56,134 nt of DNA from Gammaproteobacteria bacterium. Its GTDB lineage: Bacteria; Pseudomonadota; Gammaproteobacteria; SURF-13. Location: the NCBI GenBank assembly GCA_003599485.1, contig QZKM01000005.1, positions 1-56,134 of the forward strand, written 5' to 3'. A program made the translations under genes and the position numbers. The stretch's first letter is position 1. Every line of letters starts with the position of its first letter. Below the pieces are notes generated by a model. That model searched no databases. It was not told the origin of the DNA and saw nothing but the letters and a program-made list of their open reading frames with translations. This document shows positions 24,926 through 54,926 of the stretch, one piece after another.

Positions 24926-24966
24926 ATTCTATAGCGCGCGGCATGAAAAAGCTTGATCTACATCAA
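24926..24966. promoter_or_regulatory. FNR/ANR box with -10, beta-CASP nuclease and hydrolase promoters
   Basis: TTGATCTACATCAA (24953-24966) is a perfect FNR-type palindrome. On the minus strand a TAGAAT hexamer (24931-24926) begins 28.5 bp from the box centre, which is class II geometry, and predicts an almost leaderless nuclease mRNA. In the other direction TATCGT (24989-24994) is a weaker -10 for the hydrolase at 25041. Confidence 0.75.
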
Positions 24967-37286: not shown

Positions 37287-38429
37287 TTATGAAGCCGCCG
37301 CACCGCCTGCCGCAAGCTGATCGCGCACTTCGCGCGCGATCAGTAATTCTTCGTTCACCGGGATAACGTAGATATCCGCTGCGGAATGGTGCGCGCCGAT
37401 GCGCCGTTCGACGCCCAGCGCCGCTGCATTGGCCGCGTCATCTAGCGCCAACCCGCACCACTCCATGCCGGATAAAATGCGCGCGCGGATTTGCGGCGCG
37501 TGTTCGCCGATGCCGCCGCCGAACAGAATTGCGTCCGTCCCGCCCAGGAGCGCGAGATAGGCGCCGAGGTATTTTCGCGCGCGCCGGCAGAAGGCGCCTA
37601 TCGCAAGCGCAGCGCCGGCGTGACCTTGCGCTTCGAGCTTCAGCAACTCGCGCATGTCGCCGCTGACTCCGGACAGCCCCAGCAGTCCGGAGCGCGTGTT
37701 CAACCCACGATCCAATTCATCCACACTGATGCCTGCGCGCAGCAGGTGCAGCAGCGCGCCCGGGTCCACGTCGCCGGGGCGCGTGGCCATGATGAGTCCT
37801 TCCAGCGGCGTGAAACCCATGCTGGTATCCACCGGCTTGCCGTTGCGTAGCGCGCTCATGGAGCAACCCTGGCCGAGTTGCAGGGTGATGACGCGCCCGG
37901 CGTGTTTTCCGGTCAACTCCGCGTAGCGCTCATATAAATAACGGTGCGCGATGCCGTGAAAGCCGTAGCGCCGGATGGAGTAATCACGCGCCCAGGCGGC
38001 GGGCAGCGCATAGTGTTTCGCTTCATCCGGCAAGTCGTGATAAAACGCGGTATCAAACACCGCGTATATGGGTACGCTGTCGCCCAGCTTTTCGCGCGCC
38101 GCGCGGATCACCTCCAGCGCCGGAGGGTTGTGCAGCGGCGCAAGCGCGTTCAACGACTCGATCTCGCGCAACACCTGCGGGGTGATGCGCGCCGGCGTAA
38201 CGAAACGCCCGCCGCCGTGCACAATGCGATGTGCCACGGCGGTTAATGATTCAGCCCACGTCTCACCTGCAACACGGCTTAACTGCGCAAATGCGTTCAG
38301 CGTGGCCTGGGCGTAATTGCCGCCGGCCTCGATGACGCCATGCGCCAGAGAACGGAGTCCGGCGCTGTTTGATTCAAACAACTGAAACTTGAGCGTCGCG
38401 CTGCCGCAGTTGAGCACCAGGATGCGCAT
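37287..38429 (-). CDS. ackA: acetate kinase
   Basis: Acetate kinase converts acetyl phosphate and ADP to acetate and ATP. The 380-residue protein begins MRILVLNCGSATLKFQLFE, with Ala where most have Ser in CGSSSLK. It has HRIVHGGGRFV, VFDTAFYHDLPDEA, RRYGFHGIAHRYLYE, LQLGQGCSMSALRNGKPVDT, PLEGLIMATRPGDVDPG and LFGGGIGEHAPQIR. There is no adjacent pta; acetyl phosphate would come from the phosphoketolase divergently encoded nearby. The start at 38429 follows family N-termini. It lies 12 bp after glgP. Confidence 0.95.
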   Translation of the reverse strand: MRILVLNCGSATLKFQLFESNSAGLRSLAHGVIEAGGNYAQATLNAFAQLSRVAGETWAESLTAVAHRIVHGGGRFVTPARITPQVLREIESLNALAPLHNPPALEVIRAAREKLGDSVPIYAVFDTAFYHDLPDEAKHYALPAAWARDYSIRRYGFHGIAHRYLYERYAELTGKHAGRVITLQLGQGCSMSALRNGKPVDTSMGFTPLEGLIMATRPGDVDPGALLHLLRAGISVDELDRGLNTRSGLLGLSGVSGDMRELLKLEAQGHAGAALAIGAFCRRARKYLGAYLALLGGTDAILFGGGIGEHAPQIRARILSGMEWCGLALDDAANAAALGVERRIGAHHSAADIYVIPVNEELLIAREVRDQLAAGGAAAS

Positions 38430-38441
38430 CACACGCCGCAC

Positions 38442-40133
38442 TCAGCGCAGGTAGGCTTCGGTCGCGTAGCGGCGCATCATGCGGTGGCTGTTGAAGTAGC
38501 AGGCGTTCTTGCAGATTGCACCCTTCATCATGCCGATCCAGCCCGCGCGGTTGCCGTAGTAAAGAGGCAGCACTGCCTGTTCCAGTTTTTGATAAAGCTC
38601 GCGGCCGTCGGCGCCGTTTGGCGCTTCCTTGGTGTCGCCTATCGCCCAGCCGGTAACGCCTTCGATGCAACCCTCGATCCACCAGCCGTCCAGCACGGAG
38701 AGTTGCGGCACGCCATTGAGCGCCGCCTTCATGCCGCTGGTGCCGGAGGCCTCCAGGGGACGCAGCGGCGTGTTGAGCCACACGTCCACCCCGGCGGTCA
38801 TGGCCTGCGCAATCTGTAAATCGTAGTTCGGCAAATAGGCGATGGTGATGTCGGCGGCGAGTTCGCGCATGTGCGCGTGCAGCGTTTCAATCAGCCGCTT
38901 GCCGCCGTCGTCGCGCGGATGCGCCTTGCCGGCCAGCACCAGTTGCAACGGCCGCTCCCTGGCGATGCTCTTCAGGCGCGCAAGATCGGAAAACAACAGG
39001 TCGGGGCGCTTGTAGGCCGTCATGCGCCGGGCAAAACCGAGGGTGAGCACGTGCAGATTCAGGTTCACCTGGGTGAGCGCCTTGACCTTTTCGATCAGCG
39101 CGCGCTTGGCCTCCTGGTGAGCATTCCACAGCGCCTCGTCGGGGATGCGGTCGGCGCGCGACAGCACCTCCGGCTCGTGGCACCAGCCTGGCAGATAGGC
39201 GTCATAGAGCTTGACGAAGCCGGGAAAGGTCCAGGTGTAAGGATGCACGCCGTTGGTGATGGCGTGCACGCTGTAGCCTGGAAAGAGCTTGCGCGAGACC
39301 TCGGCGTGGCGCTTGGCGACGCCGTTCACGTATTGGCTCAGATTCAGCGCCAGGCGCGTCATGTTGAGCCGGTCGTCGCCCGCCAGCGTCTTCAGCGTGG
39401 GCAGGTCAATGAAGTTTCGCAACACATTCTGCACCAGGTCATAGGGAAATTGATCGTGTCCGGCCTCCACCGGAGTGTGGGTGGTGAAGCTGCACATATC
39501 GCGCACCCAGGGCACGTTGTAAGGCGATTCGCCTGCGCGCAGGTCTTCGGGCGGATAGGCGTAGCGGCGCAGCAATTCCAGCGCCAACAGCGCGGAGTGG
39601 CCTTCGTTCATATGATACTGGCGCACGCGGAAGCCCAGCGCCTGCAACATGCGCACGCCGCCGACGCCAAGCACGATCTCCTGCTTCAGCCGGTAAGCGG
39701 CGTCGCCGCCGTAGAGGTGATGCGTGAGTTGCCGGTCGTCCGGATGATTTTCGGCCAGATCGGTGTCCAGCAATATCACCGGCACGCGCCCGTTCATGTG
39801 GCCCTGCAACACGTACAGCCAGCCGAACACCCACACGTCGCGTCCTTCAATCTGTACCGCCACCGCAGCGGTGAGACGCGACGCGAAACGGCCCGGCTCC
39901 CACTCATCGGGGTGTTCGATCTGCCGTCCCTGCGCGTCTATCTCCTGGCGGAAATAACCCCTGCGGCTGACCAGGCTCACCGCCACCAGCGGCAGCTCCA
40001 GGTCGGCGGCGGAATGCACCGTGTCGCCCGCCAGCACGCCCAGGCCCCCGCTGTAGGTGGGAATTTCATTGTGCAGCGCGATCTCCATGGAAAAATAAGC
40101 GACGCGCGGCACGTGCAGAAACTCCATTAACAC
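38442..40133 (-). CDS. glgP: alpha-glucan (glycogen) phosphorylase, short type
   Basis: GlgP releases glucose-1-phosphate from glycogen. The 563-residue protein is of the short "alpha-glucan family phosphorylase" type: YFSMEIALHNEIPTYSGGLG near the N-terminus, HMNEGHSALL, FTTHTPVEAGHDQF, ITNGVHPYTW, FARRMTAYKRPDLL and LEASGTSGMKAALNGV (C-terminal part that binds pyridoxal phosphate). Of possible starts, GTG 40133 has a GGGAG site (40142-40146) eight bases upstream. ATG 40127 or TTG 40139 are alternatives. It heads an operon with ackA and is divergent from the phosphoketolase, with one FNR box between. Confidence 0.92.
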   Translation of the reverse strand: MLMEFLHVPRVAYFSMEIALHNEIPTYSGGLGVLAGDTVHSAADLELPLVAVSLVSRRGYFRQEIDAQGRQIEHPDEWEPGRFASRLTAAVAVQIEGRDVWVFGWLYVLQGHMNGRVPVILLDTDLAENHPDDRQLTHHLYGGDAAYRLKQEIVLGVGGVRMLQALGFRVRQYHMNEGHSALLALELLRRYAYPPEDLRAGESPYNVPWVRDMCSFTTHTPVEAGHDQFPYDLVQNVLRNFIDLPTLKTLAGDDRLNMTRLALNLSQYVNGVAKRHAEVSRKLFPGYSVHAITNGVHPYTWTFPGFVKLYDAYLPGWCHEPEVLSRADRIPDEALWNAHQEAKRALIEKVKALTQVNLNLHVLTLGFARRMTAYKRPDLLFSDLARLKSIARERPLQLVLAGKAHPRDDGGKRLIETLHAHMRELAADITIAYLPNYDLQIAQAMTAGVDVWLNTPLRPLEASGTSGMKAALNGVPQLSVLDGWWIEGCIEGVTGWAIGDTKEAPNGADGRELYQKLEQAVLPLYYGNRAGWIGMMKGAICKNACYFNSHRMMRRYATEAYLR

Positions 40134-40168
40134 GCTCAATCTCCCATGCTCATTGAAAATATAACTGC

Positions 40169-40236
40169 ATCATAAGCCTTTTACGCAATGGTTTATTGAT
40201 GCAAATCAAATACCCGATTTTTCCGCGTCCTAGAAT
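40169..40236. promoter_or_regulatory. FNR/ANR box with divergent class II promoters, glgP and phosphoketolase
   Basis: TTGATGCAAATCAA (40196-40209) is a perfect FNR palindrome. A TAGAAT hexamer (40231-40236) on the plus strand and a TATGAT hexamer (40174-40169) on the minus strand both begin exactly 28.5 bp from its centre. One dimer could therefore activate both promoters, with starts near 40243 and 40162. Confidence 0.85.
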
Positions 40237-40280
40237 GGAGTCGCGCTCCGCCGCTTGCGCTTGAAAATAACGTGAGGATC

Positions 40281-42659
40281 ATGAATACAACGTCTGGTTT
40301 GGATGCGAAGGACAGGCTCGCGCTGGAGCGCTACCGGCGCGCGGTGAATTATCTTGCCGCGGCGCAGATTTATCTCCTGGACAATCCCCTGCTGGAGCAG
40401 CCGCTCAAACCGGAGCACATCAAGCCGCGCCTGCTCGGCCACTGGGGCACGGCGCCGGGTATCAATCTGATTTACGCGCATCTCAACCGGTTAATCCTGT
40501 GCAGCGGCGCGGATATCCTGCTCATCACCGGCCCCGGCCACGGCGCGGCGGCCAATCTCGCCAACCTGTATCTCGAAGGCACGCTCACGGAATTTTTCCC
40601 GCGGCTTACCCAGGACAAGGACGGCCTCAAGGAATTTTTGAAATCCTTTTCCTGGCCCGACGCGTTCCCCAGTCACCTGAGCCCGAATTATCCAGGCGTG
40701 ATCCACGAAGGCGGCGAGCTGGGCTACGCGCTCGGCACCGCGTTCGGCGCGGTGCTGGACCATCCTGACCTCATCGTCGCCTGCATCGTCGGCGACGGCG
40801 AGGCGGAGACCGGCCCCACCGCCGGCGCCTGGCATGGCAACAAGTTTCTGAATCCCGCCACCGACGGCGCGGTGCTGCCGATACTGCATCTCAATCAATT
40901 CAAGATCGCCAATCCGACGATCTTCGGCACCATGACGGACGAAGAGTTGCGCGCGTTGTTCATCGGTTATGGTTATGCGGTGCGGATCGTGGACTTGAGC
41001 GATCACATTGACGGTGATATGAGCGCGGCGCTGAGCTGGGCCTATGAGGACATCCGCGCCCTGCAACGGCGCGCGCGTTCCGGCGAGATCATCGAGCGCC
41101 CGCGCTGGCCCCTGTTGATCCTGCGCACGCCCAAGGGCTGGACCGGGCCGAAGGAAATTGACGGCAAGAAGATCGAAGGCTCGTTTCTGTCGCATCAAGT
41201 GCCGGCCAATGACGCCAAGACCCATCCCGCACACCTCAAAATCGTTGAACAATGGCTGCGCTCTTACCGTCCGCAAGAATTATTTGATGAAAACGGCCGT
41301 CCCGCCGAAGACATCCGCGCGCTGTGTCCCCGGGGTGGCAAGCGCATGGCCATGAATCCGCACGGCTTCGGCGGCGTGCGCCGCAAGCCGCTCGCGCTGC
41401 CGCCGCTTGAATCCTACGAAGTAGAGGTCACGTCACGCGGGTGCTGCATGGTGAGCAGCGTGGAGCAGTTCGCCGGGTATCTGCGCGACGTAATAAAACT
41501 CAACCGGACAGAACGCAATTTCCGCATCGTGTGTCCAGACGAGCTGGAGTCGAACAAGCTGGGCGCAGTGCTGGAAGTGACGTCGCGCCAGTATGTCTGG
41601 CCGCTGCCGGAAAACACGGAACATACCGCGCGCGACGGGCGCGTGCTGGAGGTACTGTCCGAGCACAACTGCCAGGGTTGGCTGCAGGGCTATCTTCTCA
41701 CCGGGCGGCACGGCCTGTTCCCGTGTTACGAGGCGTTTCTGCCCATCGTGGACGGCATGATGAATCAGTACGCCAAGTTCCTCAAATCCTCGCTGGAGGT
41801 GCCGTGGCGCAAACCGATTTCATCGCTCAATTATCTGCTCACCTCGGAGGCCTGGCGTCAGGAGCACAACGGCTACTCGCACCAGGGCCCCGGTTTCATC
41901 AACAATCTGCTCACCAAGAAGGGCCACACCTACCGCATCTATTTTCCGCCCGACGCCAATTGCCTGCTGTACACCATGGACGAGTGCCTGCGCGTCACCA
42001 ACTACATCAACCTGGTGATCGCGGGCAAACAGCCCATGCCGCAATGGCTGTCGCTGGACGAGGCGCGCGAACACTGCCGCGTGGGTGCATCGGTGTGGCG
42101 CTGGGCGAGCAGCCACGACGGCGAAGACCCGCACATCGTGCTCGCCTGCTGCGGCGACAACCTCACCCTGGAGACCCTGGCCGCGGCGGACGCGCTGCGG
42201 CGCGCCACGCCGGTGTGGCGCGTGCGCGTGGTGAACGTCACCGACTTGCTGGTGCTCGGCATTCCGCAAAAATATCCGCACGGCCTCGATGAGGAGCGGT
42301 TCCAGAGAATATTTCCGCTCAACTGTCCGGTGATTTTCAATTTCCACGGCTACACCGCGGCGATCAAGCAACTGTGCTGGGAGCGGCCCGGCAGCGAGCG
42401 CTTCGACATCAACGGCTACCGCGAGGAGGGCACCACCACCACGCCGTTCGACATGCACATCCGCAACCGCACCAGCCGCTACCACCTGATGATCCAGGCG
42501 GCGCAAAAGATGGCCGCCCGCCATCGCGATGCTTCGACGCAGGCCAGGGCGCTGATCGGGGAATATGAACGCAAGCTCGCCGAGCATCGCGCCTACATCC
42601 GCCGCGAAGGCCTCGACCCGCCGGAGATCAATGGCTGGCGCTGGCGGGCTGGCCCTTGA
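40281..42659 (+). CDS. xfp: phosphoketolase (xylulose-5-P/fructose-6-P)
   Basis: The thiamine-diphosphate enzyme cleaves xylulose-5-phosphate or fructose-6-phosphate to acetyl phosphate plus a triose or tetrose phosphate. The 792-residue protein has LLGHWGTAPGINLIYAHLNR and GPGHGAAANLANLYLEG (N-terminal). The ThDP motif is GDGEAETGPTAGAWHGNKFL, and SYEVEVTSRGCCMVSSVEQ, EAFLPIVDGMMNQYAKF, HQGPGFINNL and GYREEGTTTTPFDMH also occur. These fit XfpA-type phosphoketolases. ATG 40281 has a GAGG site. It is FNR-controlled by the sequence upstream, divergent from glgP-ackA, and followed 78 bp later by groEL. Confidence 0.95.
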   Translation: MNTTSGLDAKDRLALERYRRAVNYLAAAQIYLLDNPLLEQPLKPEHIKPRLLGHWGTAPGINLIYAHLNRLILCSGADILLITGPGHGAAANLANLYLEGTLTEFFPRLTQDKDGLKEFLKSFSWPDAFPSHLSPNYPGVIHEGGELGYALGTAFGAVLDHPDLIVACIVGDGEAETGPTAGAWHGNKFLNPATDGAVLPILHLNQFKIANPTIFGTMTDEELRALFIGYGYAVRIVDLSDHIDGDMSAALSWAYEDIRALQRRARSGEIIERPRWPLLILRTPKGWTGPKEIDGKKIEGSFLSHQVPANDAKTHPAHLKIVEQWLRSYRPQELFDENGRPAEDIRALCPRGGKRMAMNPHGFGGVRRKPLALPPLESYEVEVTSRGCCMVSSVEQFAGYLRDVIKLNRTERNFRIVCPDELESNKLGAVLEVTSRQYVWPLPENTEHTARDGRVLEVLSEHNCQGWLQGYLLTGRHGLFPCYEAFLPIVDGMMNQYAKFLKSSLEVPWRKPISSLNYLLTSEAWRQEHNGYSHQGPGFINNLLTKKGHTYRIYFPPDANCLLYTMDECLRVTNYINLVIAGKQPMPQWLSLDEAREHCRVGASVWRWASSHDGEDPHIVLACCGDNLTLETLAAADALRRATPVWRVRVVNVTDLLVLGIPQKYPHGLDEERFQRIFPLNCPVIFNFHGYTAAIKQLCWERPGSERFDINGYREEGTTTTPFDMHIRNRTSRYHLMIQAAQKMAARHRDASTQARALIGEYERKLAEHRAYIRREGLDPPEINGWRWRAGP

Positions 42660-42688: not shown

Positions 42689-42730
42689 TTGATCTATGTC
42701 AATGCCTCCGGCCGGCGTGTGTTCTAGCTT
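42689..42730 (+). promoter_or_regulatory. FNR-like box and -10 upstream of groEL
   Basis: TTGATCTATGTCAA (42689-42702) has one mismatch to the FNR consensus. A weak -10, TAGCTT (42725-42730), lies at about the class II distance. Transcription would start at about 42737, one base before the groEL ATG, and no ribosome-binding site is visible there. A leaderless mRNA is predicted. Confidence 0.6.
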
Positions 42731-54886: not shown

Positions 54887-54926
54887 TTGATCTATATCAA
54901 GCCCGGCCCGGGGAGCCTGCTATACT
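54887..54926 (+). promoter_or_regulatory. FNR/ANR box and -10 upstream of ppsA
   Basis: TTGATCTATATCAA (54887-54900) is a perfect FNR palindrome. TATACT (54921-54926) lies at 27.5 bp from its centre, giving a start near 54933 and a 47-base leader for ppsA. In the other direction TATGTT (54864-54859) is a weaker candidate -10 for the DUF302 operon. Confidence 0.75.

Follow-up and report, generated by a model that had tools for sequence, protein, structure and literature searches.

Can one FNR dimer, bound once between two divergent operons, act as a class II activator for both? This question is raised by the region between xfp and glgP in a gammaproteobacterial MAG, at 40169–40236 of the window (the whole stretch of 56,134 nt that was analysed). 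A sequence-only reading of this DNA had noted a single FNR box with a good -10 hexamer at the same distance on each side, and had proposed that the box is a class II site shared by the two promoters, that such an arrangement is unusual, and that it could impose strict co-regulation on glycogen breakdown and the phosphoketolase shunt, with the operons competing for RNA polymerase or being co-occupied by it. Here, we examine this proposal against the genes, the regulator, chance expectation, relatives of the host, and known systems.

The intergenic region and its genes

On the plus strand, xfp (40281–42659) encodes a phosphoketolase of 792 aa, with matches above cut-off to XFP_N, XFP, XFP_C and NF003619, and is followed by a GroEL gene. 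On the minus strand lies a gene for a glgP-type alpha-glucan phosphorylase (38442–40133; TIGR02094 at 556 bits, cut-off 192), whose GTG start at 40133 lines up with the ATG of three relatives. It is followed without a gap by ackA (37287–38441), an acetate kinase gene by matches above cut-off to TIGR00016 and PF00871, and then by a gene for an acyl-CoA ligase/acyltransferase fusion. The profile matches agree with the identities first given to the two flanking genes. Phosphoketolase produces acetyl phosphate, which acetate kinase converts to ATP and acetate, and the two operons therefore hold successive steps; in many other bacteria, xfp and ackA adjoin on one strand. The phosphoketolase shares 70–76% identity with proteins from Nitrospira moscoviensis, Acidobacteria and other phyla and only about 50% with most gammaproteobacterial ones, a pattern of identity which suggests that the gene may have been transferred between phyla.

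Between xfp and glgP there is one FNR site, even with up to 2 mismatches allowed. This is the box TTGATGCAAATCAA (40196–40209, no strand), a perfect match to TTGATNNNNATCAA in both half-sites, centred at 40202.5 and common to both predicted promoters. The class II promoter predicted for xfp has the -10 hexamer TAGAAT (40231–40236, plus strand), and the one predicted for glgP-ackA has TATGAT (40169–40174, minus strand). Both lie 21 nt from the box, which places the start of each hexamer 28.5 bp from the box centre, and both match TATAAT in 5 of 6 positions, A2 and T6 included; box position and spacing are as the sequence-only reading gave them. If the hexamers are taken to be -12 to -7, the box centre would be at -40.5 for both promoters and transcription would start at 40243 (plus) and 40162 (minus), 81 bp apart. 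Class II activation by FNR goes with a box centred around -41.5 (± 4) relative to the transcription start (PMC3688515). At spacings of 15–19 bp, the best -35 match to TTGACA is only 2/6 on the xfp side and 3/6 on the glgP side, and a generic sigma-70 scan of 39700–40700 found no promoter, as would be expected for activator-dependent promoters.

The regulator

The host genome, which is 96% complete, has one PF13545 match to a CRP/FNR-type HTH, in a protein of 244 residues (L082, 1492–2226); other cNMP-binding domains are present, but a search for a second CRP/FNR regulator found no other HTH match. Aligned with Aliivibrio FNR, the protein has the CxxCx5C motif, the further cysteine and an ETVSR recognition helix and, judged by these residues, is a canonical [4Fe-4S] FNR. 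Its orthologues in three relatives (G003, G004 and G005) are 64–69% identical; in G005 the gene is some 3 kb away from xfp, and in G004 some 2 kb away from glgP.

Chance expectation

By pattern search of the 1.69-Mb host genome (96% complete), the exact box occurs at 13 places and a reversed control pattern at none. Across 54 distinct perfect boxes from six genomes of the host's family, the density of -10 hexamers is 0.037 per position at 20–23 nt from the box vs 0.0036 elsewhere, and this roughly tenfold enrichment indicates that the class II geometry is real and a local rule in the family. At the xfp/glgP box itself, 20,000 dinucleotide shuffles of the flanks, scored for a 5/6 hexamer (A2 and T6 included) at 20–23 nt, yielded one on the xfp side in 1.2%, on the glgP side in 4.1% and on both together in 0.05%. 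A strong hexamer on both sides is found at just one of the 54 family boxes, that at 40196–40209. Since about 15% of the box sides in the family bear a strong hexamer, however, independent combination would give about 1.2 such doubles, and the symmetry itself needs no selection for symmetry.

Conservation in relatives

The divergent xfp/glgP pair was found only in the host genome (G000) and in G005 (L002), and none of the other phosphoketolase loci examined has a divergent adjacent glgP. The G005 box is again perfect (it reads TTGATATGGATCAA on the xfp strand), and TAAAAT at 22 nt preserves the xfp arm; on the glgP side the box stays but the hexamer is absent, its place reading TGCGCG. In G003, where xfp is no longer adjacent and the divergent neighbour of glgP is an HlyD-like secretion gene (by our own ORF reading), the box upstream of glgP is likewise perfect, and TATGAT, its flanks matching too, lies at 22 nt. 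The glgP box of G004 differs at one position, with no hexamer at 21–22 nt from it. All four genomes in which the region upstream of glgP is readable thus retain the box. As read from these sequences, the box is steady and each arm independently supported (xfp in G005, glgP in G003), with the two-sided state in one genome only.

The sequence-only reading had proposed comparing box and -10 spacing in orthologous regions, and had held that loss of one hexamer in close relatives, with expression kept, would speak against it. The comparison comes out in its favour for the xfp arm in G005 and the glgP arm in G003, but against it for the glgP arm in G005 and G004; the sequence half of the adverse case, a glgP hexamer gone while the box is kept, is what G005 presents.

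Other phosphoketolase genes were seen in G003: a close xfp orthologue (L101, 1306–1734), lying among transporter genes, of which a large internal deletion, in frame, has left about 142 codons, with no comparable promoter region at this remnant, and a distant xfp, about 50% identical, elsewhere in the genome. G001, of the same genus as the host and 76% complete, was set aside as a test because no xfp was seen in it and its glgP consists of 32 residues at a contig end.

Other FNR boxes in the host and its family

A perfect FNR box at 24953–24966 lies between a minus-strand metallo-beta-lactamase/beta-CASP gene and a plus-strand alpha/beta hydrolase gene, with TAGAAT at 21 nt on the beta-CASP side and TATCGT at 22 nt on the hydrolase side. 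In G001 (L172), a box with TAGAAT at 21 nt stands ahead of a gene equal in length to the beta-CASP gene. Another perfect box, at 54887–54900, lies between a DUF302 gene (minus strand) and a pyruvate phosphate dikinase-domain gene (plus strand); its hexamers are TATGTT at 22 nt (DUF302) and TATACT at 20 nt (dikinase), the latter being the better, which makes this box a second, weaker two-sided candidate within the window. Just upstream of the GroEL gene that follows xfp, a one-mismatch FNR box, TTGATCTATGTCAA (42689–42702), lies 36 bp from the ATG, where a -10 would leave hardly any leader. Two more perfect boxes in the host genome lie near Hsp20 genes (L152 and L154, on contigs C4 and C5). Together, the Hsp20, GroEL and beta-CASP boxes hint that FNR may control a group of stress or dormancy genes.

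Occurrence beyond the family

A search of 369 gammaproteobacterial genomes for symmetric boxes, using a loose TANNNT hexamer and 22/22 spacing only, found 14 two-sided sites in 13 genomes; a 29/22 spacing control gave 6 sites over two orientations, or about 3 each. Two of the 14 belong to the host's family, one being the box upstream of glgP in G003 and the other that at 54887 in the window. Several of the 14 lie between divergent genes: hemerythrin and DUF488 genes (L205), genes for a DsbD-like protein and Usp (L207), a tetrapyrrole methylase gene and one for a cytochrome cd1 protein (L206), and the ubiT- and ubiU-like genes of L210, described below.

The partner genes xfp and ackA also share boxes elsewhere. 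At five alphaproteobacterial loci (L020, L026, L032, L033 and L044), a single FNR/FixK-type box, perfect or with one mismatch, lies between divergent xfp and ackA, and overall such boxes occur in 8 of 76 xfp upstream regions vs 1 of 76 control stretches. Since no E. coli-like -10 is readable on either side at the five loci, we claim only the shared box for them. These observations suggest that a shared box between xfp/ackA partner genes arose more than once, the alphaproteobacterial case being apparently independent.

Proposed role of the shared box

We propose, with a probability of roughly 0.6, that under low oxygen one FNR dimer activates both divergent promoters at class II distance. The dimer at 40196–40209 would act on two separate sigma-70 promoters from a centre at about -40.5, the FNR subunit closer to the -10 on each side compensating for the absent -35. 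The outcome would be an anaerobic route with glgP and ackA on one strand and xfp on the other, by which glycogen would yield acetate and ATP, with sugar phosphates and acetyl phosphate as intermediates. FNR binding, the start sites, the activation of both genes and this pathway are what we infer from features read in the DNA (box, hexamers, spacing, genes, FNR protein and the separate conservation of the two arms), and on these features the finding is real and probably functional.

A class II site for both genes is the best reading because the sole CRP/FNR-type HTH found belongs to a canonical FNR, because class II spacing is the rule at the family's boxes, and because each -10 is kept in one relative. 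We also count in its favour the perfect box flanked by mirror-image hexamers that have no good -35, the successive enzymes of the two operons, the reporter results from Dinoroseobacter shibae (described below) and the alphaproteobacterial xfp/ackA boxes. Counted against it are the occurrence of the both-sided state in a single genome, the lack, in G005 and G004, of a glgP hexamer at the class II spacing, and the expectation of about one double per 54 boxes without selection for symmetry. The original proposal of a class II site for both genes is supported in part: it stands as to box, spacing, regulator and the conservation of each arm once, but not as to the glgP hexamer in G005.

The main rival to two-sided activation is possible but unlikely: FNR would drive xfp, the glgP-side TATGAT would be weak or idle, and glgP-ackA would be transcribed from another promoter or respond weakly to FNR. 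It would explain why G005 keeps the xfp hexamer and not the glgP one, and why G004 also has no glgP hexamer, and it accords with E. coli, where a factor bound between divergent genes generally works in one direction (PMC3105977). It does not sit easily with G003, whose TATGAT and matching flanks were kept although xfp is no longer the neighbour, nor with the box being retained upstream of glgP wherever that region is readable, and the scan of 39700–40700 offers no other sigma-70 promoter near glgP.

A second alternative, which we regard as distinctly unlikely, is that both sides respond to FNR but polymerase at one promoter hampers the other, so that activation is shared or alternating and not simultaneous. 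The short distance between the predicted starts (81 bp) speaks for it, as does the geometry, by which an alpha-CTD serving one promoter from upstream of FNR would sit in the spacer of the other, making simultaneous full occupancy doubtful. At bidirectional promoters that share a -10, moreover, activation from -40.5 suppressed the opposite transcript through polymerase competition (PMC12825309). Those promoters differ from the present ones, whose -10 hexamers (40169–40174 and 40231–40236) are separate and 57 bp apart, and in D. shibae the two directions were assayed in fusions one at a time. In its strict form, with polymerase held by one FNR subunit blocking the mirror promoter, glgP/ackA and xfp would be linked by competition instead of simple co-induction, which we find improbable to the same degree.

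Finally, it is very improbable that the box has some role other than FNR activation or none, or that one hexamer matches by chance because the intergenic DNA is AT-rich: the AT-rich glgP-side flank does yield a hexamer in some shuffles (4.1%), and a second reverse-strand hexamer, TATATT, lies 32 nt from the box, but both hexamers seldom arise jointly (0.05%), the box pattern stands at 13 against 0 for its reversed control, and the box is kept in relatives.

Comparison with known systems

If both promoters are activated as proposed, the locus offers a small natural system in which to ask whether two polymerases can be served simultaneously by a single activator dimer, as has already been asked of CRP and of bidirectional promoters. 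It would also mean that, in an uncultured lineage, an oxygen sensor controls a route made up of glycogen, phosphoketolase and acetate kinase steps. El-Robh and Busby, in 2002, reportedly described a model system for one CRP-type dimer controlling two divergent promoters. In E. coli, 11 divergent pairs have a single CRP site (PMC3105977). The likeness lies in one dimer of the CRP/FNR family serving two divergent promoters; the E. coli pairs differ in using CRP instead of FNR and in site positions that vary among pairs.

The divergent ubiUV and ubiT operons of E. coli are both activated by FNR without oxygen from two separate FNR sites (PMC10470549), that is, one site per promoter, whereas here one site would serve both. 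One symmetric box, as opposed to the two FNR sites of E. coli, was also observed at L210 (around 1529), between an SCP2 (ubiT-like) gene and a U32 peptidase-family (ubiU-like) gene. The promoters of Warman, Grainger and colleagues (PMC12825309) resemble ours in that opposite promoters are near enough for polymerase competition. In theirs, both directions share or overlap one -10, whereas here the -10s are separate and the common element is the activator site; hence those promoters are only a guide.

In D. shibae, a single Fnr/Dnr site lies at -39.5 of nirS and -41.5 of nosR2, with starts known from RNA sequencing; both reporter directions need DnrD and partly FnrL, altering the site abolishes nirS expression, and a second such single site lies between hemA3 and dnrE (PMC5398030). 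As is predicted for xfp/glgP, one palindromic Fnr/Dnr site serves anaerobic genes that diverge from it, with class II spacing in either direction. D. shibae differs in being an alphaproteobacterium with denitrification genes, several Fnr/Dnr regulators and the box TTAAC-N4-GTCAA, whereas the present locus belongs to a gammaproteobacterial MAG with one FNR and concerns glycogen and phosphoketolase genes. The arrangement, initially called unusual, is indeed rare, but it has precedents in nirS-nosR2 and hemA3-dnrE. Since the D. shibae precedent has been shown experimentally, the xfp/glgP box adds a good example to an arrangement that is rare but known, and is not something new.
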